A stretch of DNA of 64,000 nucleotides. Source: Nodosilinea sp. E11 (GTDB lineage: Bacteria > Cyanobacteriota > Cyanobacteriia > Phormidesmidales > Phormidesmidaceae). The position numbers were made by a program, and so were the translations under genes. The stretch covers positions 614,001 to 678,000 of the forward strand of contig NZ_CP136520.1 of the NCBI RefSeq assembly GCF_032813545.1, in the 5' to 3' direction. Positions 8,074 through 63,612 of the stretch are shown here, one piece after another (position 1 is the stretch's first letter; each line of letters opens with the position of its first letter). The notes below the pieces were generated by a model. It was not told where the DNA came from. It searched no databases and saw only the letters and a list, made by a program, of their open reading frames with translations.

Positions 8074-8101
8074 GTAGAGGCGTAGCATGCTACGCCCCTA
8101 C
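8074..8101. terminator. GTAG-GGCGTAGCATGCTACGCC-CTAC palindrome at the arsJ 3' end
   Basis: A near-perfect 28-base palindrome with one mismatch. The arsJ stop codon (TAG on the minus strand) lies inside it. It belongs to the GTAGGGGCG-type palindromes seen several times in this window. It can form a strong hairpin and may terminate or protect arsJ mRNA, but lacks a clear U-run. Confidence 0.5.
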
Positions 8102-42941: not shown

Positions 42942-45900
42942 GTGGAGAATAGAATGCATCATCAGCGACTAACCCAGGCTGGTTTTTTGGGTGAGAGCCC
43001 CATGGCGATGCGATTGCGATCGCGCGACTGGTCCAATGCTCCCCTTGGGCAGCCGGCCCATTGGCCTGCCGGGCTAAAAACTAGCCTGAGCCTTTTACTC
43101 AACAGCGACAGGCCGATGGTCTGCGTATGGGGCCGCGATCGCTGGGTCTTCTACAACGATGCCTGTGCAGCGCTGAGCGTACCGGGCCACAGCTGGCCTG
43201 TGGGGGAACCTCTGACCCGCTATGAAGCGAAAGACTGGCAGCCCCTAGCCACGGGCGTTGACCAGGTACTTAGCACCGGGCAACCGCTGTCGCTAGCGGT
43301 AAATCCAGAGGGGAGCCCGCTGATGGCCAACCACGGCTGGGCCTTTAGCGCCATTTGGCAAACTACCGACCAGGTTGAGGGGGTGTTTGCCACCGCCCTC
43401 GCCCCCACCCCAGACCCCCAAGTCTCAAAGCACTTTATCGATCGCCGTCGCCCCACGGCGGCTAGCCTGCGAGAAAGCGAGGCCCGATTTCGCCACCTAG
43501 CCGACAACATTTCTCAGCTGGTATGGATGGCCGACCCCAGCGGCTCAATCTTTTGGTACAACCAGCGCTGGGTCAACTTTACAGGGCTGCCGCTAGATGC
43601 TTTGCAGGGTCAGGGTTGGCAGCAGCTGCATCACCCTGACCACATCGATCGGGTCATGGCAAAGATCGATCACTGCTTTGCCAACGGCGACCTGTGGGAA
43701 GACACCTTTCCCCTACGCAGCAAAGACGGGGAATATCACTGGTTTCTCTCGCGCGGCACCCCGGTGTGCGACGAGCAGGGAAAAGTGCTGCGCTGGGTAG
43801 GCACGAACACCGACATTACTGAATTTAGAGAGACTGAAAGAGCCCTCAAGCAGGCTACCGAACGACTGAATATTGCCCTCAAGAGCGCCCCCATTACGCT
43901 GTTTAGCCAAGACCAGGATCTGCGCTATACCTGGGTCTACAACCCCACCCATGACTACACCGTTGACCAAATGCTTGGGCAGCGCGATCGCGACCTGGTG
44001 TCTGCCGAGGCCGCCGATCGACTCACCGCGCTCAAACGGCAGGTGCTCGACAATGGGGTAGCCCTGCGGGCCGAGGTGCAGGTCGATCAGCTCTACTACG
44101 ACCTCACCATTGACCCCATTCGCGATCAGCAGGGGAACATTGTGGGAGTGACCTGCGCGGCGGTAGACATTAGCGAGCGGGCCAAACTCACCGCCGAGCA
44201 TCTGCAAGCTGAGCAGACCCTGCGCCAGAGCGAAGAACAGTTGCGGATGGCCCAGACCGCCGCTGGTGCCGGTCTTTGGGATTGGGATTTGACGGACAAC
44301 ACCGTAATTTGGTCGGAAGAGTACTATCACCTCTATGGCTTAGACCTGGGCGTCACTCCCTCCTACGAAAATTGGTTGGCCGCTGTGCTGCCCGCCGACC
44401 GGCCCTACATCGAGCGCAAAACCCGTGAGGCCATCGAGCAGGGTAAAAATCTCAAGGTCAGCTTTCGCGTTCAGCACCCGCAAGAGGGACAGCGCTGGCT
44501 GATGGTGCGGGGGCAAACCTTTTACGACGCGGCGGGTAACCCAGTGCGGATAACGGGCATTGCGATGAATGTCACCGAGCAAAAGCGGTTTGAGCAGGCC
44601 CTCGTCGAAAGCGAAGCCCGAGCGAGAACCCAGGCCGAAGAACTGGCGGCCCTGATGGAAGCCACCCCTGCCGCGATCTGGATTGCCCACGATGGCGATT
44701 GCCGTCTGATGACCGCCAACCGCATGGGTCACGATCTGATGCTCACCGAGCCCGGCAAGCCGTTTAGCCTCACTTCTGCCGAGAATGAGTTTTTGCTGTC
44801 GTTTAAGCCCTATAGGCAGGGGCAACTGATGGCACCCCAAGACCTGCCCATGCAAAAGGCGATGCGAATCCGGCAGGAGGTGACTGACGAAATTGAGTTG
44901 GTCTATGCCGACGGCACCGTGCGCCACATCTACGGCAAGGCGGTGCCGCTCTACGACCTGGAGGGGATAGTGCGTGGGGCGATCGGTGGGTTTACCGAGA
45001 TTACGGCGATTAAGCAGAGCGAACAAGAACGCGAACAACTGCTCCAGCGCGAACGCATTGCCCGAGAGGAAGCCGAGCAGGCCAACCGCCTCAAGGATCA
45101 GTTTTTGGCGGTGCTCTCCCACGAGCTTAGATCGCCCCTCAACCCGATCTTGGGCTGGTCAAAGCTGCTGCAAACCCGTCGCTTTGACGAGGCCAAAACC
45201 GCCCAGGCCCTGGCTACAATCGAGCGCAACGCCCTGCTACAAGCCCAGTTAGTCGATGACCTGCTCGATCTAGCGAAGATTTTGCGCGGCAAAATTCAGT
45301 TCACCCCCATCCCAGTCAAGCTGGCGGGGGTGATTGAGTCTGCCCTGGAGACAGTCAAGGGGGCGGCAGCGGCCAAGGCGATCGCCCTGACAATCGACCT
45401 CGACGCCACGGTACAGGCCAGTGGCGACGCGGCCCGTCTGCAACAAATTGTGGGCAATTTGCTCTCTAACGCCATCAAGTTTACGCCCCAGGCGGGCCAG
45501 GTCACCGTTACCCTGCACGCCGTTGACAGCCAGGCCGAAATTACCGTGGCCGATACGGGCATTGGCATCAGTGCCGAGTTCTTGCCCTACCTGTTTGAGT
45601 CATTTCGCCAGGAAGATATCTCGATTACTCGCCAGCACGGTGGGCTGGGGCTAGGGCTGGCGATCGTGCGCCAGCTGGTCGAAATTCACGGTGGCACGAT
45701 TGCGGCCCGCAGCCCAGGCGAGGGCCAGGGGGCAACGTTTACGGTGCGGTTACCCAAGCTGGTGGCCAAAGCCCGGCCTGGCCCGTCGGTCTCTCTCCCC
45801 CTGGCGGCCCCCGACCTGCGGGGTATTTGCGTCTTTTCGGTCGATGACTCCGCCGATACCCGCGAGTTGCTGACGGTGCTGCTGAGTCAGTATGGGGCCG

Positions 45901-46202
45901 AAGTGGTGACCATTGGTTCGGCCGCCGAAGTGCTCGATCGCCTGCAACACCAGCAACCCGATGTGTTGATCAGCGATATTGGCATGCCCGAAATCGACGG
46001 CTACAGCCTAATTCGCCAAATTCGCAGCTTGCCCCCCGACCAGGGCGGCAACATTCCGGCGATCGCGCTCACCGCCTACGCCCGCTACGAAGACCAGCAA
46101 GAGTCGCTGGCCAGTGGCTACCAGCGCCACCTGGCCAAACCCCTCGATATCGAAAAGCTGGTGCAAACGGTGATTGAGCTAACCCAGCGATCTCGCGCCT
46201 AG
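42942..46202 (+). CDS. PAS-rich hybrid histidine kinase
   Basis: A 1086-residue cytosolic kinase. An N-terminal PAS-like region (RDWSNAPLGQPAHWPAGLKT, common in cyanobacterial and proteobacterial hybrid kinases) precedes about four more PAS modules up to about 700, then HisKA with H727 in [11 protein letters not shown], HATPase, and a C-terminal receiver with D1012 in SDIGMPEIDGY. The [23 protein letters not shown] is a near copy of one in the kinase at 27.7-32 kb. GTG start with GGGAG three bases upstream; an ATG four codons on is also possible. The stop overlaps that of the convergent PfpI gene in CTAG. Confidence 0.92.
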   Translation: MENRMHHQRLTQAGFLGESPMAMRLRSRDWSNAPLGQPAHWPAGLKTSLSLLLNSDRPMVCVWGRDRWVFYNDACAALSVPGHSWPVGEPLTRYEAKDWQPLATGVDQVLSTGQPLSLAVNPEGSPLMANHGWAFSAIWQTTDQVEGVFATALAPTPDPQVSKHFIDRRRPTAASLRESEARFRHLADNISQLVWMADPSGSIFWYNQRWVNFTGLPLDALQGQGWQQLHHPDHIDRVMAKIDHCFANGDLWEDTFPLRSKDGEYHWFLSRGTPVCDEQGKVLRWVGTNTDITEFRETERALKQATERLNIALKSAPITLFSQDQDLRYTWVYNPTHDYTVDQMLGQRDRDLVSAEAADRLTALKRQVLDNGVALRAEVQVDQLYYDLTIDPIRDQQGNIVGVTCAAVDISERAKLTAEHLQAEQTLRQSEEQLRMAQTAAGAGLWDWDLTDNTVIWSEEYYHLYGLDLGVTPSYENWLAAVLPADRPYIERKTREAIEQGKNLKVSFRVQHPQEGQRWLMVRGQTFYDAAGNPVRITGIAMNVTEQKRFEQALVESEARARTQAEELAALMEATPAAIWIAHDGDCRLMTANRMGHDLMLTEPGKPFSLTSAENEFLLSFKPYRQGQLMAPQDLPMQKAMRIRQEVTDEIELVYADGTVRHIYGKAVPLYDLEGIVRGAIGGFTEITAIKQSEQEREQLLQRERIAREEAEQANRLKDQFLAVLSHELRSPLNPILGWSKLLQTRRFDEAKTAQALATIERNALLQAQLVDDLLDLAKILRGKIQFTPIPVKLAGVIESALETVKGAAAAKAIALTIDLDATVQASGDAARLQQIVGNLLSNAIKFTPQAGQVTVTLHAVDSQAEITVADTGIGISAEFLPYLFESFRQEDISITRQHGGLGLGLAIVRQLVEIHGGTIAARSPGEGQGATFTVRLPKLVAKARPGPSVSLPLAAPDLRGICVFSVDDSADTRELLTVLLSQYGAEVVTIGSAAEVLDRLQHQQPDVLISDIGMPEIDGYSLIRQIRSLPPDQGGNIPAIALTAYARYEDQQESLASGYQRHLAKPLDIEKLVQTVIELTQRSRA

Positions 46203-46882
46203 GCCACCCTCAGCTGCTGAAGCACCGCCTGAGCCGCCGCCTCGGAGGAGGCCGGATTTTGGCCGGTGATCAAGTTGCGATCGCACAGGACGTAGGGCTG
46301 CCAATCGTCGGTTTTTGAGTAGTTGCCGCCGTTGGCTTTCAGCATATCTTCGACCAAAAAGGGCACCACGTCAGTGAGGCCCACGGCGGCTTCTTCGCTG
46401 TTGGTAAAGCCAGTGACTGAGCAGTTTTTCACCAGGGGCGAGCCATCGGTGGCCTTGGCATGGCGCAGCACGGCGGGGGCATGGCAGACGGCGGCCACGG
46501 GTTTACCGGCGGCAGCGCAGGCTTCGATCAGGGCGATAGAGTGAGGATCGTCGGCCAAATCCCAGAGGGGGCCGTGGCCGCCGGGGTAAAACACGGCATC
46601 GTACCCCTCAGCGGTGATGCTCGACAGCACAGCGGTGTTGGCCAGAGCGGCTTGGGTCTCGGGGTCTTGGCGAAAGCGATCGGTGGCCTTGGTCTGGGCG
46701 TCGGGGGCATCGCTTTTGGGGTCTAAGGGCGGCTGTCCCCCCTGGGGTGAGGCCAAGGTGATGTCGGCTCCGGCATCTTTAAACACGTAATAGGGGGCGG
46801 CAAATTCTTCGAGCCAAAAGCCTGTTTTTTGGCCAGTGGTGCCCAGCTGAGCGTGGGAGGTGAGAATCATTAAAATTTTCAT
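46199..46882 (-). CDS. DJ-1/PfpI-family protein (Hsp31/glyoxalase III-like)
   Basis: A 227-residue class I glutamine-amidotransferase-like protein. It has MILTSHAQLGTTGQKTGFWL, FYPGGHGPLWDLADD, and the nucleophile-elbow AVCHAPAVL with the active-site Cys. Glu in the FWLEEFAAPY segment completes the Hsp31-type site. Members are glyoxalases, deglycases or chaperones in stress; the substrate is unproven here. It lies between two kinase genes, both of which converge on or follow it. Confidence 0.9.
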   Translation of the reverse strand: MKILMILTSHAQLGTTGQKTGFWLEEFAAPYYVFKDAGADITLASPQGGQPPLDPKSDAPDAQTKATDRFRQDPETQAALANTAVLSSITAEGYDAVFYPGGHGPLWDLADDPHSIALIEACAAAGKPVAAVCHAPAVLRHAKATDGSPLVKNCSVTGFTNSEEAAVGLTDVVPFLVEDMLKANGGNYSKTDDWQPYVLCDRNLITGQNPASSEAAAQAVLQQLRVA

Positions 46883-46921: not shown

Positions 46922-49591
46922 TTAGTCATTGGTGCCAGGGCTGATCAGATCGACCATGACATTACCTAGCTGAGCAATGTCTAGGGGTTTAGAGAGGTGG
47001 CGCTGAAACCCAGCGGCCAGGGCGCGATCGCGATTTTGGTCGCCCACGTAGGCCGTGAGGGCGATCGCCGGAATGTTGCCGCCCTGGTCGGGGGGCTGCT
47101 GCCGCAGGGCTTGAATCAGCATGTAGCCATCCTGGTCGGGCATGCCAATGTCGCTAATCAGCAGGTCGGGGTGGTGCTGTTTGACCATCCGCAGCCCGGC
47201 CTGGGCCGAGCTCGCGGTTAGCACCTCTATATCGTAGTCTTGCAGCGAGAGGGTGAGCATGTGCAGCGAGTCTAGATCGTCATCGACGATTAGAACCTTA
47301 CGCCCAGCCAAGTCAACGGGGCCAGACGACTGCCGCTGCTGGTGGGGCAGAGAACCTGGCGCTTGCAGGGGGAATCGCACTGTAAAGGTCGCCCCCTGAC
47401 CTTCCCCAGGGCTATCGACCAACACATCACCCCCGTGCTGCTCGGTGAGGTAGCGCACAATGGCCAGGCCTAGCCCTAACCCGCCAAAGGCGCGGGTGCT
47501 GCTGCTGTCGGCCTGACGAAAGCGCTCAAACACGTAGGGCAAGAAATCAGCGCTAATGCCCTGGCCGGTATCGTTGACTTCTACCACAGCGTGGTGGTGG
47601 TCTTGGTAGAGCCGAACGGTGACCTCACCACCCTCGGGAGTAAACTTGACGGCGTTAGACAGCAGGTTCCAGACAATCTGCTGGAGGCGGTTGTCGTCGC
47701 CAGCGATCGGCCCCACGGTGGTATCTAGGTCGGTGTGCAGGGCAATGGCCTTAGCTTTAGCCGAGAGCTGCACGGTCTCTAAGGAGGCGTTAATCACACT
47801 GACTAGATCGATCGGCTGAATGTCGAGCCGCAGCTTGCCCCGCAAAATCCGCGATACATCTAGCAGGTCTTCGATCAGCTCGGCCTGAATCTTGGCGTTG
47901 CGCTCAATGGTCTCTAGGGCCTGGGCACGGGTGGCCTCGTCTAGAGGGCGCGATCGCATCAGGGCCAGCCAGCCCAAAATGGGGTTGAGCGGCGTGCGCA
48001 GCTCGTGGGAAAGCATCGCCAAAAACTCATCTTTGATTCGGTTGGCTGCCTCTGCCTCCGAACGGGCCACGCGCTCTTGGGTCAGGGCGCGATCGCGCTC
48101 TGCTAGCGCCATTCTCTGGTCATGAATATCGGTAGACGAGCCAAACCACCGCAACACTTCACCGCCCTCCCCCTCCAGGGGAAAAGCCCGCACCAGGTGC
48201 CAGCGATACTGGCCATCTGCCGCCCGCAGCGGTCGGGCCTCTAGGGTGAGCGGCTGCCCCGTTTGCAGCGACTCAGTCCAGGCCTGCTCACAGAGCTGGC
48301 GCTCGTCGGGGTGCAGCACCGCCAGCCACCCCTGAGCAAAACTCTGGGCCGATGACAGCCCCGTGTAGTCATACCAGCGCTGGTTGCAATATTCGAGCTG
48401 GCCATCGGGTCTGGCCGTCCAAAACATTTGCGGCATCGAGTTAGCCAGGGTGCGAAAGTGTAGCTCACTACGCCGCAGGGCCTTCTCCGCCTGCTTTTGC
48501 TCCGTCACATCAGAGTTGATTTCTAAAATAGTGTCTGGCTGACCCGCCGTGGTCGGCTGTAGCGTCCAGCGACTATGGATTAAAATAGTGCGGCCCTGGC
48601 GGGTCGTTTGCTTCAACTCCCCTATCCAATGCCCGTGGTGCAACACCGCCGCCCGAACCGTTTCTAGCGATTCAGGGAAAACGGTTTTGAGTAGCTCGGG
48701 GGCCGATCGCCCCATCACCTCCTCTGCAGACCAGCCATAGCGCCGCGCCGCGCCCTGGTTCCAGTAGGCAATCTTGCCGCTATCGAGCTCTCGAATAATA
48801 ATGCCGTCATTGGCCAGGTTCAGCATTTGCATCTGCTGAGTCAGCCGACGCTCGTCATTTTTTTGATTGGTCAGGTCGCGAAAATAAATAGCCAGCCCGT
48901 TGGCCATGGGGTTGATGTGCATTTCAAACAGGCGATCAGGATGCACCACCCCTAGGGTTTCAACCACCACTGGGCGCCGGGTAGCCATCGCCTGACGAAA
49001 GGATTTTCCCATGCTGCTGCCCTCTAGGGTAGGCATCACCTCCCAGACAGCATGGCCCAGCAAAGTATCGAGGGGCTGCTGAAGCAAACGTTGGGCTTCG
49101 GGGTTGACGTACACAAAGCGCCACTGCAAATCTAAGGCATAAAACCCTTCGGTGATACTTTCTAAAATAGCCGTTATCCACTGGTTAGTCTCACTCAGTG
49201 AAGTTTCACTTTCTCGCAGCTGCAAGTAGCTTTGATCTAAGTACCGATTTGCCACTCTCAACGAGCCACACAAAATACTAATGACAGTATTTTGAACCAA
49301 AAATACCCCCAGACGGATTAGTGCTGGCAACCCGAGACTAAAGGTATATTGTGGCTCCATAAAGAAGTAGCCACTAATAAACGTAGAAAGCACTGTAGTG
49401 ATGACGCCACACTCAATGCCACCCCACCAAGACGCCACCACCACAGCCCCGTTAAATAGCAAAAATGGCGTCATTATCATATCTGCAATTGGGTCAAGCA
49501 GACCCATGAGCACAAGAGCTGTGGCTGTACTAAGTACTGCTATGCCAAATGCTCTAGCGCTTAAATGAAACAGTGGGGGATTCATCACCAT
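46922..49591 (-). CDS. Membrane hybrid histidine kinase (DUF4118-PAS-HK-REC)
   Basis: An 889-residue kinase. Residues 10-105 hold about four membrane helices of KdpD/DUF4118 type (PADMIMTPFLLFNGAVVVAS-like; GYFFMEPQYTFSLGLP). Three PAS domains follow (about 135-500), then HisKA with H529 in LSHELRTPLNP, HATPase with [10 protein letters not shown], and a receiver with D814 in SDIGMPDQDGY. The start is near MNPPLFHLS; the first or third codon may be used. The kinase part is paralogous to the two cytosolic kinases in the window. Confidence 0.92.
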   Translation of the reverse strand: MVMNPPLFHLSARAFGIAVLSTATALVLMGLLDPIADMIMTPFLLFNGAVVVASWWGGIECGVITTVLSTFISGYFFMEPQYTFSLGLPALIRLGVFLVQNTVISILCGSLRVANRYLDQSYLQLRESETSLSETNQWITAILESITEGFYALDLQWRFVYVNPEAQRLLQQPLDTLLGHAVWEVMPTLEGSSMGKSFRQAMATRRPVVVETLGVVHPDRLFEMHINPMANGLAIYFRDLTNQKNDERRLTQQMQMLNLANDGIIIRELDSGKIAYWNQGAARRYGWSAEEVMGRSAPELLKTVFPESLETVRAAVLHHGHWIGELKQTTRQGRTILIHSRWTLQPTTAGQPDTILEINSDVTEQKQAEKALRRSELHFRTLANSMPQMFWTARPDGQLEYCNQRWYDYTGLSSAQSFAQGWLAVLHPDERQLCEQAWTESLQTGQPLTLEARPLRAADGQYRWHLVRAFPLEGEGGEVLRWFGSSTDIHDQRMALAERDRALTQERVARSEAEAANRIKDEFLAMLSHELRTPLNPILGWLALMRSRPLDEATRAQALETIERNAKIQAELIEDLLDVSRILRGKLRLDIQPIDLVSVINASLETVQLSAKAKAIALHTDLDTTVGPIAGDDNRLQQIVWNLLSNAVKFTPEGGEVTVRLYQDHHHAVVEVNDTGQGISADFLPYVFERFRQADSSSTRAFGGLGLGLAIVRYLTEQHGGDVLVDSPGEGQGATFTVRFPLQAPGSLPHQQRQSSGPVDLAGRKVLIVDDDLDSLHMLTLSLQDYDIEVLTASSAQAGLRMVKQHHPDLLISDIGMPDQDGYMLIQALRQQPPDQGGNIPAIALTAYVGDQNRDRALAAGFQRHLSKPLDIAQLGNVMVDLISPGTND

Positions 49592-53838: not shown

Positions 53839-55143
53839 ATGCAAGGTAATTGCTTGGCAGCAATTCCCAGTTTTTCTGCTGCAAAACTGGATCACACTGT
53901 AACCCAGCCGCCCCCTGTACTGCTTGCTAAACCGCCGCTGGCCCAAACCCGAGTTTCTGTAATTGTGCCTGTGCGCAACGAAGCCGCCACCCTACAAAAA
54001 ACGTTGCTAGCCCTGGCTAACCAAGTTGATTTCAACGGTGATCCGTTAGATAGCCGCACCTACGAAGTGATTGTCTTTGCCAACAACTGTACCGATCGAT
54101 CGGCGGCGATCGCCCGTCGTTTTGGGCGGCAACATAGTGAGTTCCAACTGCATATTTTGGAGCAAACCCTGCCAGCCAGTGAGGCCAATATTGGGCGAGT
54201 GCGCCAGCTACTCATGGATGAAGCCTACCGTCGATTCATTGGGCTGGGACGACCCCAGGGAATTATTGCCTCTACCGACGGCGACAGCGAGGTCGATTGC
54301 TGCTGGGTGGCTGCCATTTTGCACGAAATAGCCGGCGGGGCCGATGCCGTGGGTGGCCGGACGGTGATTCACCAGGCAGAGCGAGCGGCTTTAGATCGAG
54401 CGACCAAGGCCTCTTATCTACGCTTTGTGGGATACCGATATTTGATTAAGCAGCTTGAAGACTGTCTTGACCCCGACCCCTTTGATCCGGCCCCCCGGCA
54501 CTATCAATTTTTTGGGGCTAACTTTGCCGTCACCCACACTATGTATGCTTTGGCGGGGGGGATGCCCCCGGTGCACACCTCTGAGGATGTGGCCTTTCAC
54601 AACGCGGCGGTTGCCGCCGGGGCTAAGGTGCGCCACAGCCTGTTAATGCGGGTGACAACGTCGGCTCGCCACGAGGGCCGTGCTACTCAGGGCCTAGCCG
54701 ATCGCCTCAGCCAGTTTCAAACATTAGGGCAGCGGCGGCAGTCGTTTTTAGTCGAGCCAGCGGCGGCCATCGAGGCCAAACTGCTGGCCCGTCGCGATCT
54801 ACGCCGCTATTGGATGCAGATAACTAACGACCAGCCGGAGTCTGATCTGACAGCCCAGCGGCTAGTCCGGTTGGCTAACCAATTAGCGGTGCCCAAGCTG
54901 GAGTTGCACCAAGCCCTTGAGCAGTCGTTGACCCTGGGCGAACTGTTTCAGCGGGTCGAGCATTGTCAGCAGCGGTCGGGGCTTTGGCAGCAACGGTGGA
55001 CAGCAGTACCGATTGAAGGAGCGATCGCCGATCTGCGTCTGTGCTTAAACCGGTGGCGGCAGCCGGTCGATCGCCCGCCCTTAGGGCAAATGGCGGCGTT
55101 GAGGGCTAAAGCGGGCCTGGTTGACGTAGCGCTAGCCGACTAA
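53839..55143 (+). CDS. Family 2 glycosyltransferase
   Basis: A 434-residue GT-A enzyme without clear membrane helices. Residues 37-260 form the catalytic domain: VSVIVPVRNEAATLQKTLLA, the VIVFANNCTD loop, and the DxD-type STDGDSEVDCCW motif. The acceptor-side segment GGMPPVHTSEDVAFHNAAVA contains the likely catalytic ED. The C-terminal third is helical. Sugar donor and acceptor are unknown. It converges with the three-gene leftward set, ending seven bases before the NodS-like stop, and belongs to that set by content. Confidence 0.87.
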   Translation: MQGNCLAAIPSFSAAKLDHTVTQPPPVLLAKPPLAQTRVSVIVPVRNEAATLQKTLLALANQVDFNGDPLDSRTYEVIVFANNCTDRSAAIARRFGRQHSEFQLHILEQTLPASEANIGRVRQLLMDEAYRRFIGLGRPQGIIASTDGDSEVDCCWVAAILHEIAGGADAVGGRTVIHQAERAALDRATKASYLRFVGYRYLIKQLEDCLDPDPFDPAPRHYQFFGANFAVTHTMYALAGGMPPVHTSEDVAFHNAAVAAGAKVRHSLLMRVTTSARHEGRATQGLADRLSQFQTLGQRRQSFLVEPAAAIEAKLLARRDLRRYWMQITNDQPESDLTAQRLVRLANQLAVPKLELHQALEQSLTLGELFQRVEHCQQRSGLWQQRWTAVPIEGAIADLRLCLNRWRQPVDRPPLGQMAALRAKAGLVDVALAD

Positions 55144-55150
55144 AGGAGCG

Positions 55151-55744
55151 CTAGGGGCGTTCGTAGAGGTCTAGGCGGTAGTCGGCAGTGCGATCGCCCG
55201 CCAGGTGAGTCAACCGTGACTTGGCAAACGCTTGAAACGCATTGTGCACATCGTCGCCCCGCAGAGGATAGCTGGGGGCCTCGTGCAGCCAATGCACCAG
55301 CAGCAGATGCCCACCGGGGCGTAGCGATTGGTAGATCTGCTGTTGAGCCCGGTGCAAATCGGCGCGACACCAGTAATAGCCAACCTCAGACAGCACCACC
55401 AGATCAAAGCGCTGATCGGGGTATTCCTCGGGCACATTCATCAGCGCTAAGCGCACCTGGGGCAAGTGCCGGCAGCGTTCTTGGGCTCGCTGTTGGGCCA
55501 GGGCCGAAATATCAACCGATAGCAGGGCATCGCAGCGGTGGGCCAACTGCTCGGTGAGTACGCCGATCGATCCGCCAATCTCAAAGGCTGAGGCGTAGCG
55601 CGGTTTGGGCAGGGCAGCCAGGGTGGCGGCATACTTAGCGGCTTCGTAATCGCTGGTTTCAAACCGCCAGGGATCGGGGTCGGCCTGGTAGAGGCGATCA
55701 AAAAAGTCGGCGGCTAGGGACTGTTCACGAACGGGGTCAGTCAT
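55151..55744 (-). CDS. NodS-like SAM-dependent methyltransferase
   Basis: A 197-residue methyltransferase. The N-terminal DPWRFETSDYEAAKYAATLA and the SAM motif AFEIGGSIGVLTEQLA match the NodS / nodulation N-methyltransferase family (PF05401), which N-methylates a deacetylated glucosamine in Nod factors. The substrate here is unknown. The start is ATG before TDPVREQS; the 40-codon upstream extension encodes only the dispersed repeat RRLLENFLP. The PIG-L gene lies upstream on the same strand. Confidence 0.85.
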   Translation of the reverse strand: MTDPVREQSLAADFFDRLYQADPDPWRFETSDYEAAKYAATLAALPKPRYASAFEIGGSIGVLTEQLAHRCDALLSVDISALAQQRAQERCRHLPQVRLALMNVPEEYPDQRFDLVVLSEVGYYWCRADLHRAQQQIYQSLRPGGHLLLVHWLHEAPSYPLRGDDVHNAFQAFAKSRLTHLAGDRTADYRLDLYERP

Positions 55745-55782
55745 GGGGTGTGCTTTAAGGAACTGTGCTCTAAGTAGCTCTA

Positions 55783-55833
55783 CGTAGGGTGGGCACCGCC
55801 CACCAGTCGGGAGAAAGTTTTCCAGAAGTCGCC
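55783..55833 (-). repeat. Dispersed repeat containing TGGGCACCGCCCA palindrome, copy 2
   Basis: The inverse of the repeat at 4211-4263: CGTAGGGTGGGCACCGCCCACC, a short variable part, then GAGAAAGTTTTCCAGAAGTC GCC. It sits exactly between the PIG-L stop and the NodS-like start, so it forms their 90-base gap. Confidence 0.8.
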
Positions 55834-56613
55834 TTAAGGAATGTGCTCCAGGTAAATTTCCCAAGGGTGGAGAAAGTTAGCAATCAACTCCGGGGTGAGG
55901 CGAAAGCCGGTGGGGTCGTCGTCAATCAGGTCGGTAGTTTGGGAACGGTAGCAGTAAATCGCCTGCTGCTTGAGAGCAAGGTGGGGGGCGATGTCGAGCC
56001 GCCAGGCGCGATAGCGATCGCCCAGGGGCTGGCGCTGGCGCGGGTCCCAATCCCAAATCGGGTATTCGATCAGGCGGGGTGGCTGGGGCAAACCGGCGAT
56101 CGCCCCCTGCACAAGCTGCCAACTGGCGCGGTGGTCGCGGTGGGGGTCAAACTGGTAGGGCACAAAAATAGTGCGGGGAGCCACCCGATGTAGGTAGGCC
56201 CGGCATTGCTCTAGGGCCGTTTGGGCCAGCGGCGAGGCCTGGGCCAGCCCCGCCGCCAAGTCGATGGGCGGCACTGAGCCATCGGGCAGGCCCAAAAAAG
56301 TAACGGCCTCGGCCTTAACCCGAAGCAAGGCCAGAGCCTGGCAGGTTTCGGCCTGGCGCACCTGCCGCAGCCGGGGAGCGGGGTAGCGCTGCGATCGCGG
56401 ATGGGAGTTAGCCCCATCGCTGACCACCAGCACCTGAACCGGGTAACCTCGCGATCGCAGCTGGGCAATCGCTCCCCCACAGCCCAGGGTTTCGTCGTCG
56501 GGGTGAGGGGCCACCACCACCACCGGGGCGAGGGGCAGATCGTCGAGGGAGCCCAGGGGCAGCTGAGCGATCGCCTCGAAGGGGGCCAGGGGCGTCATCT
56601 CTAGCGGTGCCAT
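55834..56613 (-). CDS. PIG-L / LmbE-family deacetylase
   Basis: A 259-residue zinc-dependent deacetylase. It has VVVVAPHPDDETLGCGGAIA with the His-Pro-Asp-Asp-Glu zinc site, RQVRQAETCQALALL, VTFLGLPDGSVP, and FVPYQFDPHRDHRASWQL, whose DPHRDH contributes the second His. The family removes N-acetyl groups from GlcNAc-type lipids or thiols. Two starts are possible: the one used here (MAPLEM) overlaps the flavoprotein stop by 13 bases, or an ATG five codons on that would leave no overlap. Both indicate translational coupling. Confidence 0.87.
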   Translation of the reverse strand: MAPLEMTPLAPFEAIAQLPLGSLDDLPLAPVVVVAPHPDDETLGCGGAIAQLRSRGYPVQVLVVSDGANSHPRSQRYPAPRLRQVRQAETCQALALLRVKAEAVTFLGLPDGSVPPIDLAAGLAQASPLAQTALEQCRAYLHRVAPRTIFVPYQFDPHRDHRASWQLVQGAIAGLPQPPRLIEYPIWDWDPRQRQPLGDRYRAWRLDIAPHLALKQQAIYCYRSQTTDLIDDDPTGFRLTPELIANFLHPWEIYLEHIP

Positions 56614-57875
56614 AGGCGATCGGCGGGGGTGGTCTGGGTGAGCACGTAGGCCCCGGCTCCGGCTATGGCGGCGTCGTAGGCGGGCTGCCGCAGGTAGAGG
56701 GTGAGATCGCGTGTCACCCGCTCTAGGGCATGGGGCGACATCAGCCCCCGCGTGCCCACAGAGCGCTGGCACAGTTGCATAGTGTCTATGCAGATCTGCT
56801 CGATGGCGGTGCGCATCATATTGGCGTAGGCCACCAGTTGGTCAGGGCAGGCCTCGCCATCCCGTGGGCTGCCGCCAAACTGCGGATCGTAGGCGACGAG
56901 ACGATCTGCCGCTCCGCGCAGCCAGAGGTTGCCACTCTCGATCGCGATCGCCATTTGCCCCAGCCGCTCCTGCTGGTAGGGGTGCTCAGTGCGCTGTTCG
57001 CCTTGCAGGTATTGGCGGGTGAGGTCAAACAGGGCTTCGGCTCCGCCCAACTGCACGGCGGCAAAGCGCACGACGCCAGCGGTCAGCCAGGGCTGACGCA
57101 GGTAGTCGCCGGGCTGACCAATCAACGCGGTGGCCCCCAGCTCAACGCCACTAAAGTCAATTTTGTAGCTGGCGGTGGCCCGCATACCTAATGGCTGCCA
57201 CCAACTGCGATCGCAGCTAGTCTGCACCTGATCCATCGGCACGATACACATCTGCCAGGTGCCGTCGGGCAGCTTGCCGTTGACGAAGGGCCGTTCTACA
57301 TAGCCCCCTCCGGAGCAAAAGGTTTTTGCCCCCTCTAGACGGTAGCGGCCCCCACCTAGAGGCAAAATTCGCAGTCCTTCGGCATCTTCAGCATTCCAAA
57401 CGCCAAATAGCTTGTGCTGATCGCGGGCCTCACGACCGTAGCGATCGATTTGCTCAGCGGTGCCAAAGGTCTGAATCAGCTGAAGGGCATTCACATGGCC
57501 CTCGTACACCCGACCAATGGCCAAATTGCCCCGGCCAACGTGCTTGAGCAGCCGCAGTAGGTCGTAGGTGGTCGCCGCGTCAGTGCCTAAGCCACAGCCA
57601 CCCAGTCCTCGGACTAAGGGAGCTGCCAAAAAGCCAGCCGCCGCCAGTTGCTCAAACTCCGCTGCCGGAAACGCCCCAGAACAATCGACCGCCGCCGCCC
57701 GTGCTGCAAAGTCGTCGGCCAACTGACTGGCTAACTGCAACAGTTCGGCGATCGCCGGTTCAGGCGCTAGCCCAGGCGCTACTGTAGTCGTTAAAAGTTC
57801 AGCAGTAATAGCAAAACCTCCTACAAAACCGGTTGTCAATGCCCAGCCAAAACCCACACCGTACCCATGGTGCAA
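56601..57875 (-). CDS. Acyl-CoA-dehydrogenase-like flavoprotein
   Basis: A 424-residue protein. It resembles acyl-CoA dehydrogenases: an N-terminal helical domain (FEQLAAAGFLAAPLVRGLGG CGLG), a beta domain with LEGAKTFCSGGGYVERPFVN, and a C-terminal helical domain (LYLRQPAYDAAIAGAGAYVL). The usual catalytic Glu position is unclear. No ATG lies near the N-terminus. The TTG at MHHGYG is used here, but TAGGAGG followed seven bases later by in-frame ATT (ITAELLTTT) is an alternative start. It is the first gene of the leftward set with PIG-L and the NodS-like enzyme. Confidence 0.78.
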   Translation of the reverse strand: MHHGYGVGFGWALTTGFVGGFAITAELLTTTVAPGLAPEPAIAELLQLASQLADDFAARAAAVDCSGAFPAAEFEQLAAAGFLAAPLVRGLGGCGLGTDAATTYDLLRLLKHVGRGNLAIGRVYEGHVNALQLIQTFGTAEQIDRYGREARDQHKLFGVWNAEDAEGLRILPLGGGRYRLEGAKTFCSGGGYVERPFVNGKLPDGTWQMCIVPMDQVQTSCDRSWWQPLGMRATASYKIDFSGVELGATALIGQPGDYLRQPWLTAGVVRFAAVQLGGAEALFDLTRQYLQGEQRTEHPYQQERLGQMAIAIESGNLWLRGAADRLVAYDPQFGGSPRDGEACPDQLVAYANMMRTAIEQICIDTMQLCQRSVGTRGLMSPHALERVTRDLTLYLRQPAYDAAIAGAGAYVLTQTTPADRLWHR

Positions 57876-58009: not shown

Positions 58010-58738
58010 CTAGGGCTTGGTCAAGGTCCAGGAAATAGACTTACGGGGAGCCTCGCCTAAGGCTTTTCGCAACTCATCGTTAGACTCAAACTGAAGTTTT
58101 TTCAGATCGCAGGCATCGACCATAACGGTAAATTTATCACAGGAAAAGGGCCAGGGTGTCACCCCCAGATCGCCCGATTCTAGCTGATGAATGGTGTAGC
58201 GCTTGTTGTCAGGGCCATTGGTAATTTCTAACTGGCGGCCCCCAACCGGAATCTGGCGCTGGGACAAAATCAACGAGAGGCGATCGCACCAACGCATAAA
58301 CGTATAGGCCGATTCTGCGTCCTTAGGGCTCACCTTTAGCTCCTTTTGCCATTGGGCCTGGCGCTGGCGTTGCTCGTCGAGAAAGTCAGCCATCTTAGCA
58401 TCTTTCTCAGCCAAACCCTGGTTTAAAAAACACAGGTGCATAGAAATTAGCATAGCCACCCAACGCCCATGATAGAGCGCGTCATCGGCATGTTTGCTTA
58501 ATTTTTCTAAGGGAGATTCTTTTTCTAGGGTGAAGTCGAGCGGTGCACCCGCTTCGGTGAGTTGGTCTTCTTCCCACTCTTTTTCGAGGTTATCGTGGTA
58601 AGCGATCGCCGCAATGGTTTCGTAGAGCCGATAGGTCTGTTTACTAAAGTCCCAATGGCCAGCAATTTGAGCGGCCAAAAGAGCATGGGCACGGTGGTAA
58701 ATAATTTCCCAACCGTCGGATTGAAGATTGACGATCAT
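58010..58738 (-). CDS. DUF3891 family protein
   Basis: A 242-residue cytosolic helical protein. IYHRAHALLAAQIAGHWDFS, AIAYHDNLEKEWEEDQLTEA and DDALYHGRWVAMLISMHLCF are the conserved segments with His and Asp residues suggesting an HD-like metal site. Function is unknown. It is a single gene. Confidence 0.85.
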   Translation of the reverse strand: MIVNLQSDGWEIIYHRAHALLAAQIAGHWDFSKQTYRLYETIAAIAYHDNLEKEWEEDQLTEAGAPLDFTLEKESPLEKLSKHADDALYHGRWVAMLISMHLCFLNQGLAEKDAKMADFLDEQRQRQAQWQKELKVSPKDAESAYTFMRWCDRLSLILSQRQIPVGGRQLEITNGPDNKRYTIHQLESGDLGVTPWPFSCDKFTVMVDACDLKKLQFESNDELRKALGEAPRKSISWTLTKP

Positions 58739-58811
58739 AGTGCTTAAAGTTCAAATGTATGTAGAAAACAACGCCAAGGTGGGGGTACATCCCCCTTTTA
58801 CAGGTGCCTAA

Positions 58812-58882
58812 GTCATTCCCACACCAGGGGGAATCCAGCCAGCAACATGGCCGCTATGGATTCCCATCTGCACGGGACTAAC
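58812..58882. repeat. GTCATTCCC/GGGACTAAC element, copy D
   Basis: GTCATTCCCACACCAGGGGG AATCCA on the left and TGGATTCCCATCTGCACGGG ACTAAC on the right. It is the most regular member of the family seen at 33066, 41630 and 42063. Intergenic, no ORF. Confidence 0.7.
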
Positions 58883-58973
58883 AAACTAGCTCAATGATGA
58901 ATTTTCAAACTCGGGATGCAGTTAAGGTGCGTCACCCTGGGCAATGACGTACTTTACTCAATAAAACACTGGA

Positions 58974-59495
58974 TTATAAACCCCACACATCAGACAGGGC
59001 TGAGGGTTCAACCTCGCTATCGTTCTGCATGATCACGCTGAAGGTACCATCGGTTTCTAACACAATGGCCGCCACCTGCTCTAGGGCAGCGCCTCCCTGA
59101 GAACGGACTGCAGCGCGTACTTCACCTTCGGTGACCCGTTCCCGCTGCAGGGCCTCTTTTCTGAGTTCGCCCTGCCAGAGCAACAGCGTCGGGTGTCCTT
59201 TGATCCACTGCTGAAAAGGCCGCGATCGCACCGAGAGCCAGGTAAACACAAACTGCCAACCAATCAATAGCCCTAAACCCAACGCTCCCTGGGCCAGCGG
59301 TATATCGGTTGAGAGCAGCACCGTAGCCAAAATTGACCCTAGGGCCACCGTCACGACAAAGTCAAAGGCATTCCACTTTGACAGCGTTCGCTTGCCCGAC
59401 AGTCGCAGCAATACAATCAGGGCTAAGTAGGCCAGACTGCCGATTATTAGGGTGTGAATCAGCGGGTTATTGGAAGCTGCAAACTCGCAAATCAT
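58974..59495 (-). CDS. DUF421 / YetF-family membrane protein
   Basis: A 173-residue protein with three N-terminal helices (LIIGSLAYLALIVLLRLSGK RTLS), the family segment KWNAFDFVVTVALGSILATV, and a soluble C-terminal domain (WQGELRKEALQRERVTEGEV; VAAIVLETDGTFSVI). The family's role is not established; some are stress or spore-related. It stands alone. Confidence 0.87.
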   Translation of the reverse strand: MICEFAASNNPLIHTLIIGSLAYLALIVLLRLSGKRTLSKWNAFDFVVTVALGSILATVLLSTDIPLAQGALGLGLLIGWQFVFTWLSVRSRPFQQWIKGHPTLLLWQGELRKEALQRERVTEGEVRAAVRSQGGAALEQVAAIVLETDGTFSVIMQNDSEVEPSALSDVWGL

Positions 59496-59532
59496 AGAGC
59501 TTTAGGATTAGTTGGACACAAATTAATTCTCA

Positions 59533-59639
59533 TACCCAATCCGAATTACATAACCCCGATTCCCAAAAGACCAACCTTTAGGGGCGAACCGCTGTTCGCT
59601 CAGGGGTATCGGGGGTAGCCAAGCAAGATTGGGTAGTAG
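59533..59639. repeat. Dispersed degenerate repeat, copy 2
   Basis: Second copy of the element at 20041, with the palindrome-like GGGGCGAACCGCTGTTCGCT C in its centre. The rest of this gap shows nothing clear. Confidence 0.6.
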
Positions 59640-59753
59640 AGGGCGCATACAACGGTTGACAGATCCCCAGCGGTGCCCAGTCAAGCGCTATCCAGACAAA
59701 AGCCATCTGCTTCTGTCTGGATAGTCGTTTTAGGATCTGGCCTTTGGGCCGTA

Positions 59754-60197
59754 TTAGCTGCGGGGAGCAGCGCGATCGACGGCATTGGCTGCGCCGTTAA
59801 CTACGCCTCGGGCATTGTCAGCAGCATTTTCGGCGGCGCGCTGGGTCGATGCACCAATGTTTTCGGCAGCTTGCTTAGCCGATTGGCCGACATCTTCAAC
59901 TCGCTCTCCGACAGACTTATCGATATTCTGCTGAATGCGTTGATTAGCCTCGCGGATCATGCGATCGGCTTTGGCATCGGCGGCGCTAGTATCCATGTCG
60001 GTATCTTTGTGGGGATACATGCCCTCGGTCTTGGCCGAGTTAGCCGCTGGATTGAGATCGCGAGCAGAACTATTGCCGGGGGCCGCTGCTTGGGTGGTAC
60101 CACAGGCGGTGGTCATAAACACCACTACACCGGCTAGAAAAACGATCATCCACTGCCGCCAGACGGTAGGGTTAAACAGGTTTTTTAGAGTTTGCAT
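59754..60197 (-). CDS. LEA-like lipoprotein
   Basis: A 147-residue exported lipoprotein (lipobox VFMTTAC). The mature half is a long Ala/Gln/Glu/Asn-rich amphipathic helix: QRIQQNIDKSVGERVEDVGQ, then SAKQAAENIGASTQRAAENA. It resembles LEA-type stress proteins and the secreted helical protein at 32.4 kb. AAGGAG six bases before the ATG. A longer frame on the other strand across this gene is a shadow. Confidence 0.75.
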   Translation of the reverse strand: MQTLKNLFNPTVWRQWMIVFLAGVVVFMTTACGTTQAAAPGNSSARDLNPAANSAKTEGMYPHKDTDMDTSAADAKADRMIREANQRIQQNIDKSVGERVEDVGQSAKQAAENIGASTQRAAENAADNARGVVNGAANAVDRAAPRS

Positions 60198-60300
60198 AAC
60201 ATGCTCCTTTTAGAAGCTTAACAACAGGGGGGTCAGTGGTTTAGGCATCAGAAAAGAGTGACTAAAAACCAGTGACAAAAGGCGATAACTAGCCTATGGG

Positions 60301-61329
60301 CTACATTTGGCTTTGTAGGCTCTGCTTGCTCTCCTTGAAGCGCCGACCTAGCTGCTGGCGATCGCTGTCAGATAGGTTTTTGCGCATAGAGGCAAACATG
60401 GTGCTCTCTTCCTGACGAGTGTGATCGCCCACCATAGCCTTGAGCTGTTTAACTTTGGCCATGAACGGTTCGCCGGTAGAGGGCATGGCTTTCATCTCGT
60501 TCAGCAGGGTTTCCATTTCGGCCTGCTCGCTGTATAGCTCTTGGGTATCGTCATTGCCGTAGAACGACTGCACCGCCGGATAAACGACGTCTTCTTCGGC
60601 TTTGGCATGCACCAGCAGGTCTTTGTAGAGTTGACCAAACAAAACCTTGATCTGCTCAGCGTTATCGGCGTTGCGAATTTCGCTCATCAGAGTCTTGGCC
60701 TTCTGGTGATCCATAAAGATCAGATCGAGCACGTCAGCAGAGGTGGCATCGGACGATTGGGTGGCAACGCTACCCACAACGCCCGTTGCTGCAGCAACCG
60801 CATCCTGCACCCGAGCCCACAGGCCCTGTTGGGGTTCTTGCCCAGTGAGCTCTAGGGTGCCGAGGTATTCGAGCATGCCCTTGAGCTGCTCTTGGTGGGC
60901 GCGGTTCTCAAAGTTGACAGTATTGAGGGGGGCCAGGGCGGCTTCTACATCTTGCCCCACGACCTGAGCGGCTTTGTGCACTACCAGACCCGAGACTACC
61001 TGACCATGCTTGAGCAATTCGTGCTGAGCCATTTTTTCGTAGAGGGTAAGCTCAGAACGGGAGAGAGTATCTTTGGCCTGGCTGACAAACTCCTGCACAG
61101 TGGCCTTGGGCTCAGCCTGAATGCCGTATTGAGTAATAGCAGTTTCGACTATATCTAAGTTTTTTTGGTCATCTTCAAGCATATCTTCCAGACGCTTGCG
61201 CAGATGGCCATCGCTGCACTGGCTGAGAAATTGCTCTTCATTTTCAATGATTAGGCCTTGGATCACCTTAATGTCGGCTAGTTTTTCGGCGATCGCAGTG
61301 CGTTTTTGATCGGTCAATGTAGCAGGCAT
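60301..61329 (-). CDS. Hemerythrin-domain protein
   Basis: A 342-residue helical protein. The C-terminal half carries the HHE hemerythrin motif: FMDHQKAKTLMSEIRN, LLVHAKAEEDVVYPAVQ, and VGDHTRQEESTMFASM, whose His and Glu/Asp residues bind a di-iron centre. The N-terminal half (TLTDQKRTAIAEKLADIKVI to EYLGTLELTG) is of unknown type and predicted helical. Roles may be O2, nitric oxide or iron sensing or storage. No operon partner is evident. Confidence 0.88.
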   Translation of the reverse strand: MPATLTDQKRTAIAEKLADIKVIQGLIIENEEQFLSQCSDGHLRKRLEDMLEDDQKNLDIVETAITQYGIQAEPKATVQEFVSQAKDTLSRSELTLYEKMAQHELLKHGQVVSGLVVHKAAQVVGQDVEAALAPLNTVNFENRAHQEQLKGMLEYLGTLELTGQEPQQGLWARVQDAVAAATGVVGSVATQSSDATSADVLDLIFMDHQKAKTLMSEIRNADNAEQIKVLFGQLYKDLLVHAKAEEDVVYPAVQSFYGNDDTQELYSEQAEMETLLNEMKAMPSTGEPFMAKVKQLKAMVGDHTRQEESTMFASMRKNLSDSDRQQLGRRFKESKQSLQSQM

Positions 61330-61694
61330 AGAAATAAGGACTCCATTGGGGGTTCTTTCACAGTCTAGGGACTTTAGATTAGGTGGGTATCTGTCGCTAG
61401 GGCTGACTTAGCCGTTCGAGCAAATCGCTTAGCCTATTTCTTTGGAGCGAGACTAGATTGGATTTAAAACCTAGGCATTTTGCCTACCCAGGTGAGCGGC
61501 CCGCTCCAGAAAATTTAGATAATTCACCCAGACAGGCCATAGCCCTCTCCAAGGCCTAGGTAACGTCGCCCCAGCAACCATTGAATCTGATCCCCAAGCG
61601 GCTTAAAAAATCATTCATCTGGGCGATGAGGTCGGTCAATCAACCCGTTTAGCGTCATTAGCAACGGTCTACAAAAATATAGAGAACATCAAGC
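61330..61694. other. Intergenic, nothing recognised
   Basis: About 365 bases between divergent genes; no ORF or repeat that I can support. Confidence 0.4.
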
Positions 61695-63116
61695 ATGAGT
61701 CTTGTCTTAGAGCAAATAAAAACCCCAGGGTTAGCCCAGCTATCTTATATAGTTGGCGACGATGCGGCGGGGGTTGCTGCCGTTATTGATCCACGCCGAG
61801 ACATCGAGATCTATTTAGAGCGATCGCGCCAGCTAGGCCTGCGCTTAACCCATGCGATCGAAACCCACATTCACGCCGATTTTGTCTCCGGCTCCAGGGA
61901 ACTGCAAGCGCGTTTGGGCATTCCCATTTTGGCGGGGCAGAGTGACGATTACCAGTTTGATTACCAACCGCTGCTTCCCGAGACCAGCCTAGACCTTGGC
62001 CAGATTACTCTGACAGCCATCCATACCCCTGGGCACACTCCCGAGCACATTAGCCTGCTGCTGGCCGATGCCCAGCAGGGAGATGAGCCCTTTGCGATTT
62101 TTACCGGCGATTTTGTCTTTAACCTCGATGTCGGTCGCCCTGACTTGCTAGGCAGTGACACCAGCCGCACCCTGGCTAAACAGCTCTACCATTCACTGTT
62201 TGATCGGCTGATGCCCCTGGGCGATCGCCTCGAGATCTACCCCTGCCACGGAGCGGGGTCGGCCTGCGGCACCTCCATTGGCGATCGCACCCAAACCACC
62301 ATTGGCAACGAGCGACGGTTTAGCCCCGCCTTTCAATCGCGTAGCGAAGCAGAGTTTGTCGACTGGTTACTGGGCGATCTGCCCGAGCCACCCCGCCACT
62401 ATGCCCGCCTCAAAAAAGTTAACGCCGCTGGACCGCCCCTTCAGGGTTGCTTTCAGACCCCCCAGGCAATGTCGGTGGAGCTGTTTCAACAACAGATGGA
62501 ACATCCCGACACCCTAATCATCGATACCCGGTCGATGCTGGGCTTTGGCGGGGGCCATATTCCTGGAGCGATCAACATTGGGTTAGGGCCTGCGTTTCCC
62601 ACCTGGGTGGGCTGGCTCATCGAGCCAGATACCTCAATTCTGCTCATTACCGAAGGGCCAGAGCAGCTTCAGCAAGCTAGCGAACATCTCTTTCGCCTAG
62701 GCTATGACCGGGTAAGTGGCTATCTCCATGGGGGCATGACGGCCTGGCTAAACCAGGGATTGCCCCTACAACGCATTACCCAAATGCCGGTATGTGAGCT
62801 CTATGACCAACTCGACCGCGACGATCTGCTCATTCTCGATGTGCGTAGTGACCAGGAGTTCTTAAAGGGCGCAGTGCCCCATGCCCAGCACCTCTATTTG
62901 CCCTATTTAGAAAAAGAGCTGTCTCGGCTAGATCACACTAAGGCTGTGGCTACCTACTGCGGCAGCGGCTATCGGGCCTCAATCGCCGCCAGCCTGCTGC
63001 AAAAGTACGGCTTTGCCTCGGTGATCAATATTCCGGGGTCTTGGAGCGCTTGGCGATCGGCCAATCTGCCGGTCGAGCAACCCAAGACAACCGCGATGCC
63101 CAAGGTTGCCCTATAG
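61695..63116 (+). CDS. MBL-fold hydrolase fused to two rhodanese domains
   Basis: A 473-residue protein. Residues 1-245 form the metallo-beta-lactamase domain with the zinc motif THIHADFVSGSREL, then HTPGHTPEHIS, TGDFVF and CHGAGSACG. This is the persulfide-dioxygenase-like type, where the usual HADH is HADF here. Two rhodanese modules follow: about 265-355 (IIDTRSMLGFGGGHIPGAIN) lacks the active Cys, and about 365-460 has CGSGYRAS, so it is probably active. It would act in sulfur or persulfide metabolism. Single gene, no SD obvious. Confidence 0.9.
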   Translation: MSLVLEQIKTPGLAQLSYIVGDDAAGVAAVIDPRRDIEIYLERSRQLGLRLTHAIETHIHADFVSGSRELQARLGIPILAGQSDDYQFDYQPLLPETSLDLGQITLTAIHTPGHTPEHISLLLADAQQGDEPFAIFTGDFVFNLDVGRPDLLGSDTSRTLAKQLYHSLFDRLMPLGDRLEIYPCHGAGSACGTSIGDRTQTTIGNERRFSPAFQSRSEAEFVDWLLGDLPEPPRHYARLKKVNAAGPPLQGCFQTPQAMSVELFQQQMEHPDTLIIDTRSMLGFGGGHIPGAINIGLGPAFPTWVGWLIEPDTSILLITEGPEQLQQASEHLFRLGYDRVSGYLHGGMTAWLNQGLPLQRITQMPVCELYDQLDRDDLLILDVRSDQEFLKGAVPHAQHLYLPYLEKELSRLDHTKAVATYCGSGYRASIAASLLQKYGFASVINIPGSWSAWRSANLPVEQPKTTAMPKVAL

Positions 63117-63219
63117 CGGTCGGGGGGTGATCTACAATCACCTCCCGCCAAGCTGGGTCATAGCTATCGTTATGGCCCTAGCAAAAACTAAAAACGTATT
63201 CAACCAACGACCGCTACCG

Positions 63220-63612
63220 TTAGTTACCCACCGTGATGTGGGTGCTATCGACGGCGCGAGTGCCATCGACGGCGCTGGCTATAGCAACAACGCGCTCTAA
63301 AAGAGTGCGATCGCTCACCTGCCCTGCCAGCGCAACGGTGCTCCCGTGTTGACTTAGAGTCACAGTATCTACAGCCTTAAGGGTTGGATCGTGGTCTAGA
63401 GCCTCAGCCACCCGCCGCACCAGGCCATAGTCGTCATACTCTCCCTCTAGGCCCATGCACTCCGGCGGCGGTGGCGGCGTGTGCATCCCCGCTTTTTCGC
63501 GCAACTCACTGTCGTAGGTATTGGTGAGGCCCGGGGTCATCGCCTGGTGCTGTGCCCCCGTGGTAACGGCCAAATCACACTGATCAAAATCGATCTGGTT
63601 GTGCCAAGTCAT
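63220..63612 (-). CDS. BON-domain protein
   Basis: A 130-residue protein with a C-terminal BON domain (VRRVAEALDHDPTLKAVDTV, TLSQHGSTVALAGQVSDRTL, ASAVDGTRAVDS). BON modules bind membranes, and are often found in osmotic-stress proteins such as OsmY. No signal peptide is visible in the polar N-terminus, so it may be cytosolic. Confidence 0.87.
   Translation of the reverse strand: MTWHNQIDFDQCDLAVTTGAQHQAMTPGLTNTYDSELREKAGMHTPPPPPECMGLEGEYDDYGLVRRVAEALDHDPTLKAVDTVTLSQHGSTVALAGQVSDRTLLERVVAIASAVDGTRAVDSTHITVGN

Follow-up and report, generated by a model that had tools for sequence, protein, structure and literature searches.

A widespread four-gene set in Nodosilinea sp. E11, proposed to make an amino-sugar glycoconjugate by a pathway that includes an unusual oxidation

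A 64,000-nucleotide stretch of the Nodosilinea sp. E11 genome (hereafter the window, with gene positions counted from its first letter) contains four adjacent genes, encoding a glycosyltransferase, a methyltransferase, a deacetylase, and a flavoprotein with an acyl-CoA-dehydrogenase-like (ACAD) fold:

53839–55143, + strand: GT2 glycosyltransferase, GT-A fold, soluble, 434 amino acids (PF00535, 1.4e-09), convergent with the other three
55151–55744, − strand: NodS-like class I S-adenosylmethionine-dependent methyltransferase, 197 amino acids from ATG (PF05401 NodS, 1.9e-17)
55834–56613, − strand: PIG-L/LmbE-family de-N-acetylase, 259 amino acids from ATG (PF02585, 2.6e-25)
56601–57875, − strand: ACAD-fold flavoprotein, 424 amino acids from TTG (PF08028, 7.3e-12; PF02771, 9.3e-08)

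The GT2 and methyltransferase genes are separated by 7 bases, and the ACAD and PIG-L genes overlap by 13. The ATG start of the methyltransferase lies 89 bases past the PIG-L stop, with a longer TTG frame opening at 55864; the start codon of the flavoprotein is doubtful, as similarity to its relatives begins near residue 11–45. A preliminary description of the locus had reported four genes with this gap, this overlap, and coupled starts; the layout is as it stated, with coupling confined to the ACAD/PIG-L junction. No NCBIfam model reached its cut-off for any of the four window proteins.

The four genes are kept and lost together. Each of 96 related cyanobacterial genomes was searched with all four families, and close homologues of all four genes were found in an identical 25 genomes; the full set occurs in none of the other 71. 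Matches were accepted as close homologues at E values up to 1.5e-61 for PIG-L, 1.1e-174 for the flavoprotein, and 2.2e-95 for the methyltransferase, and every GT2 match at E up to 1e-20 was counted. Weaker PIG-L, flavoprotein, and methyltransferase matches were left out as paralogues, including a flavoprotein match in genome G051 at 2.2e-60. Under independence, the chance of identical presence in 25 of 96 genomes would be 1/C(96,25), or ~10^-23 per pair, a figure that kinship among the genomes makes far too optimistic. Within the window's own genus the distribution is patchy (15 of 26 genomes). Two of the 71 non-carriers (G008 and G053) retain a fragment of the set's flavoprotein, one with an internal stop, which looks like decay after loss of the set. 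In one carrier (G012) the GT2 gene lies on another large contig, and in another (G071) it is found on the far side of the ACAD gene.

Gene order was compared across 80 loci from named genomes, the best 80 of 112 and including three from Bacteroidota (L108–L110). The order ACAD, PIG-L, methyltransferase on one strand is observed in 77 of these. The remaining three show the ACAD gene only: one ends at a contig edge 119 bases past the match, and the other two extend ~2.3 kb beyond the match without partners, the ACAD match being truncated in one of these. A GT2 gene is present inside the fetched stretch at 56 loci, all among the 77 with the other three genes, and is convergent as in the window at 51 of the 56. 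Whole genomes were searched for 23 of the 24 loci that lack a GT2 in the stretch, and a full-length GT2 of the family was found elsewhere in 17 (at least 577 bits). Counting nearby and distant copies together, a GT2 accompanies 73 of the 77 three-gene loci; the distant copies strengthen its link to the other three genes and are silent on the chemistry. One locus (L074) is a contig of a metagenome-assembled genome (MAG) titled Tatlockia that carries a cyanobacterial-type set at 65% identity. Tatlockia is, as we take it, a gammaproteobacterial name; this title is probably wrong, since the genome concerned (G100) groups in one phylum with the Gloeocapsopsis genome G099.

The same arrangement recurs far outside these relatives. 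A draw of 296 Bacteroidota genomes, its centre included, was searched with the methyltransferase profile, which matched in nine; the six strong matches (238–290 bits) all adjoin ACAD and PIG-L genes, with GT2 within 1.5 kb in four, and the three weak ones (75–105 bits) are without partner genes. A second draw covered 386 genomes of the phylum to which G100 belongs (Cyanobacteria, going by the member genomes). It gave 11 matches, the centre included and some of them in genomes already among the 96; nine have ACAD and PIG-L in a short stretch. From plasmid records, 25 stretches were hand-picked from match lists, and all except L183 were scanned with profiles. ACAD, PIG-L, and methyltransferase occur together in 19 of these 24, and 16 of the 19 also have a GT2-family gene; in L183, the annotation places a long protein named glycosyltransferase under the methyltransferase match. 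The plasmid carriers include Roseomonas, Novosphingobium, Bradyrhizobium, Sulfitobacter, Komagataeibacter, Methylobacterium, Sphingobium, Roseivivax, Jiella, Paracoccus, Sphingomonas, Deinococcus, Acinetobacter, Legionella, and Kitasatospora. Of the five other scanned stretches, L111 and L117 have the flavoprotein without the set, and L163, L165, and L166 are described below. Two Deinococcus records have an additional gene inserted in the row. The set flavoproteins of Deinococcus (L112, 5684–8023; L167, 2445–4817) have ~420 extra N-terminal residues, a part for which no Pfam match was found in L112 and no GT2-profile match in L112 or L167.

Some of these genes are also physically joined. PIG-L and methyltransferase form a single frame of 502 residues in the Bacteroidota genome L144, as do GT2 and flavoprotein (803 residues) in Methylobacterium aquaticum (L168). 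A Gloeothece protein (L166, 6955–10431) unites glycosyltransferase, NodS, and CE4 deacetylase domains. In Rubrobacter (L163), a NodB-fold CE4 polysaccharide deacetylase occupies the slot of PIG-L, beside the same methyltransferase and flavoprotein. Because two unrelated deacetylase folds fill one slot, these data, from one locus (L163) and one fusion protein (L166), suggest that acetyl removal is the step needed. In the Rubrobacter locus, a pyridine-nucleotide-disulphide type oxidoreductase (7582–8784) that might supply electrons to the flavoprotein lies between the methyltransferase and glycosyltransferase genes. Apart from the set, NodS-like stretches were observed in cyanobacterial frames of ~900–1200 residues, in L166 and also in G008, G009, G044, and G071.

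The PIG-L protein keeps the APHPDDE and DxHxDH motifs, with H37, D39, D40, H158, and H161 invariant in 13 aligned members, and its matches in the PDB include chitobiose deacetylases. The methyltransferase reaches 64.2 bits against Pfam NodS (threshold 24); its PDB profile matches are led by 4isc (3.6e-39, titled only "methyltransferase") and include NodS (3ofj, 1e-21) and, from 3.6e-10, phosphoethanolamine N-methyltransferases. This relationship to NodS and to phosphoethanolamine N-methyltransferases favours N-methylation as the predicted activity. In the GT2, the TDxD and EDxA motif residues are invariant among 20 aligned members. No membrane segment is predicted (highest 19-residue hydropathy 1.21) and there is no QxxRW motif, a string present in 1 of the 20. 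Its structural model (predicted local distance difference test, pLDDT, 80) is a plain GT-A domain with a helical C-terminal part.

The set invites comparison with Nod factor synthesis, in which NodC, NodB, and NodS likewise combine a GT2, an amino-sugar deacetylase, and a NodS-type methyltransferase on one glucosamine-containing product; the domain composition of the Gloeothece protein is a further likeness. The set, however, resembles the NodC/NodB/NodS part of that pathway without being a member of it, because NodC features, NodB features, and NodS score all fail: its GT2 is soluble and lacks QxxRW, unlike the processive membrane GT2 of NodC type; its deacetylase has the PIG-L fold (PF02585) and not the CE4 fold of NodB, which appears only in L163 and L166; its methyltransferase scores 70.4 bits against a NodS equivalog cut-off of 300; and it has an extra flavoprotein.

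The AlphaFold model of the flavoprotein (pLDDT 80.6) has the ACAD fold. Its closest structure is DszC (Z 40.6, root-mean-square deviation 2.4, 364 residues aligned), followed by TdsC, MsuC, and MAB_4123, and sequence profiles agree. Flavin monooxygenases take fold ranks 1–11 and 13 (Z 38.4–40.6), with a dehydrogenase at rank 12 (38.5); other dehydrogenase folds mostly score 36.5–37.8. The likeness to DszC, TdsC, and MsuC (Z 39.5–40.6) nonetheless comes with only 22–23% identity, a score of 69.6 bits against the DszC equivalog cut-off of 850, different residues at active-site positions, and a setting among sugar enzymes. The nitrososynthases KijD3, ORF36, and DnmZ carry out amino-sugar N-oxidation, a chemistry that would suit the neighbours of the flavoprotein, and share its fold; by Z (KijD3 37.4, DnmZ 37.0) they are no closer to it than ordinary dehydrogenases.

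The catalytic Glu of acyl-CoA dehydrogenases is missing. Pro398, within a conserved LRQP motif, aligns with the Glu of HEGT in a Kitasatospora acyl-CoA dehydrogenase (the aligner left a gap there; the count starts from the RD common to both). Glu is absent from this column in all 25 family members aligned. Residues 258–275 of the window flavoprotein, which we take to be the region of the alternative dehydrogenase base, contain no Glu or Asp; Glu occurs at 261 in 4 of the 25. Electron transfer flavoprotein (ETF) alpha (PF00766) was undetected in 23 of the 25 carriers, including the window's genome, and present in the other two (G069 and G088); it was found in 10 of 14 control genomes. Because the base Glu is missing and ETF alpha is undetected in these 23 carriers, a role as an ETF-linked acyl-CoA dehydrogenase is unlikely in most hosts, and the structural comparison makes a flavin-dependent oxygenase or oxidase the better reading.

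Since the genes are inherited and lost jointly, and since the block turns up again in unrelated bacteria, they probably belong to one pathway. We propose that this pathway makes an amino-sugar glycoconjugate and includes an unusual oxidation, and give a probability of roughly one half to a small cytoplasmic pathway of amino-sugar transfer, deacetylation, N-methylation, and flavin-dependent oxidation. The GT2 would move an N-acetylated amino sugar, most likely N-acetylglucosamine (GlcNAc) from UDP-GlcNAc, onto a small acceptor; PIG-L would take off the acetyl group; the NodS-like methyltransferase would methylate the freed amine; and the ACAD-fold flavoprotein, with reduced flavin and O2, would oxygenate or oxidise the product, possibly at nitrogen. 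Clustering of open reading frames from the 80 neighbourhoods found no family in more than nine beyond the four genes and a phosphatase–methyltransferase fusion described below. Because this clustering shows no recurrent exporter, polymerase, or acyltransferase next to the set, a small intracellular glycoconjugate is a more probable product than a polymer or lipid. The role may be stress-related (drying, oxidation).

The preliminary description had suggested a glycoconjugate with a deacetylated, N-methylated amino sugar, on an acyl part of which the flavoprotein would act, and had made the suggestion depend on co-occurrence across genomes. The genes do occur together across genomes and phyla, and its core idea, with N-methylation probable, gains support from the CE4 enzyme of L163 and the glycosyltransferase–NodS–CE4 fusion of L166. 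The acyl substrate gains no support, given the replaced Glu, the carriers in which ETF alpha went undetected, and closest structures that are monooxygenases.

A more specific version of the proposed pathway is tentative, and we would not expect it to hold in full: that the set is a mobile four-gene module whose product is an N-methylated, N-oxygenated amino-sugar glycoside (a hydroxylamine, nitrone, or N-oxide) that scavenges radicals or protects against drying in bacteria across phyla that are exposed to dry stress. Its builders would be GT2, PIG-L or CE4, the NodS-like methyltransferase, and an ACAD-fold N-oxygenase.

Several observations weigh against the proposed pathway. The lead of the monooxygenases over the best dehydrogenase (4iv6, 38.5) is only ~2 Z, and the weakest of them (8cda and 5z8t) are level with it. 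Arg122 and Arg396, each conserved in 24 of 25 members, stand at the positions of the two DszC histidines, which we take to be catalytic; because of this replacement, the substrate is probably unlike that of DszC, and is perhaps anionic. The NodS likeness of the methyltransferase, far below the equivalog cut-off, is no proof of N-methylation. The GT2 fold search returned generic GT-A matches (best PDB fold WrtF, Z 21.4) and pointed to no specific donor or acceptor, and a PDB sequence search with the GT2 gave no match. Incomplete sets also exist: among the cyanobacterial matches of the second draw, L158 has PIG-L and GT2 with no ACAD in the short stretch, and L157 has the methyltransferase alone; among the plasmids, L111 has ACAD alone, L165 only methyltransferase and glycosyltransferase, and L112, L113, and L167 no GT2-family match in the stretch. 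Finally, GT2 was not found in 6 of the 23 genomes searched for distant copies (L069, L072, L074, L093, L094, and L099), five of which are titled as MAGs; four of these (L074, L093, L094, and L099) have the other three genes.

Among other explanations, the one that survives best, though we consider it doubtful, is that the set edits an exported polysaccharide or lipid-linked repeat by GlcNAc addition, deacetylation, methylation, and flavoprotein tailoring. Glycans are common substrates of PIG-L and CE4 enzymes, and extra glycosyltransferases precede the ACAD gene in Novosphingobium and Sphingobium loci; against this, no flippase, polymerase, or export family appears in more than 9 of the 80 neighbourhoods, and hydropathy reveals no membrane segment in the window GT2.

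Improbable, in our assessment, is a pathway to a low-molecular-weight thiol or compatible-solute-like product that follows the logic of mycothiol and bacillithiol synthesis (glycosyl transfer, phosphatase, PIG-L deacetylation), with methylation replacing amino-acid ligation. A HAD-type phosphatase domain is fused to the methyltransferase, beside PIG-L, in 14 of the 80 loci, mostly from genera that we presume to be heterocystous, and 13 of the 14 have a GT2 (3 in the stretch, 10 elsewhere in the genome). However, when the 25 carriers among the 96 relatives were searched for a HAD-domain homologue, 24 gave none, and the domain was rejected as a general fifth partner. The set's PIG-L shares Pfam family and motifs with MshB and BshB, but falls below the curated cut-offs (48.4 bits against 182.5 for the BshB1 equivalog), no thiol pathway partner is seen beside the set, and no ligase family recurs in the neighbourhoods; by score, the set is not the bacillithiol or mycothiol pathway.

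Slightly less credible again is a lipid or acyl pathway, in which the flavoprotein would genuinely dehydrogenate acyl-CoA or acyl-ACP substrates while an acylated product is decorated by the sugar enzymes. The Pfam name, a fold that fits dehydrogenases up to Z 38.5, and the ETF alpha of G069 and G088 are consistent with it; the missing catalytic Glu and the 23 carriers without detected ETF alpha argue against it, as does the lack of any recurrent acyltransferase, carrier-protein, or thioesterase family in the neighbourhoods. That the genes are chance neighbours without a common pathway, to which the 24 of 80 loci with GT2 outside the fetched stretch might point, is a very remote prospect, which the co-presence data have in effect refuted. 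The same 25 of 96 genomes carry all four genes, an unlinked GT2 is still there in 17 of 23 genomes, gene order is conserved across phyla, and fusions occur.

A stress role for the set is plausible. Many carriers, going by their names, are presumably terrestrial, lichen, or desert organisms. For the 17 annotated plasmid stretches that contain ACAD, PIG-L, and methyltransferase genes, the genes in flanks of 5–9 kb were tallied by eye, with no chance level: a catalase gene is present in six (L114, L116, L161, L169, L171, and L174), and 10 have at least one of catalase, trehalose synthesis, Ku/LigD, spore photoproduct lyase, or universal/general stress protein. A strict form of the EcfG-like motif, GGAAC-N-[CG]GTT, which we take to be a general-stress promoter motif, lies upstream of the set in 3 of 12 alphaproteobacterial loci (L116, L171, and L173; 19 upstream windows), compared with a background of 32 in 1854 windows (expected 0.33, Poisson P ~0.005). 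It is absent upstream of the other nine, and the three positives are all Rhodobacterales; a general-stress promoter link is thus suggestive only. Similar motifs are printed in PMC6599016, passages of which name glycosyltransferases, Ku, and a glycogen-debranching enzyme in the EcfG regulon. The terms "acyl-CoA", "PIG-L", "deacetylase", and "NodS" are absent from the main text of that paper, which disfavours membership of the set in the regulon list as printed there. Anti-phage defence was considered and rejected, as only a weak methyltransferase-domain match to mad2 was found.

Other genes of the window include the following, those left of the set named from their translations:

42942–46202 and 46922–49591: two long hybrid sensor histidine kinases with PAS repeats and response-regulator ends
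46199–46882: DJ-1-like gene between the two histidine kinases
58010–63612: DUF3891, DUF421, hemerythrin-domain, and rhodanese/beta-lactamase-fold genes, next to the set

DUF421 and Haem_oxygenas_2 neighbours (by Pfam) are common to the window and the Acinetobacter plasmid L161, with 26% identity for DUF421. The haem-oxygenase-like proteins have no BLAST similarity, and a shared stress island is not claimed.

Literature searches, limited to open-licence papers in PubMed Central (PMC), returned no account of the four-gene set, in agreement with the earlier statement that no pathway had been described for it. The pathway spans five phyla (Cyanobacteriota, Bacteroidota, Pseudomonadota, Deinococcota, and Actinomycetota, the last also with the CE4 variant), and so wide a spread without description in the searched papers points to a widespread small molecule. 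The contrast within the window's genus, where some genomes carry the set and others do not, provides a clean presence/absence basis for metabolomics. Should the flavoprotein turn out to oxygenate an amino sugar, the name "acyl-CoA dehydrogenase" would have to be replaced for many of the proteins that now bear it.

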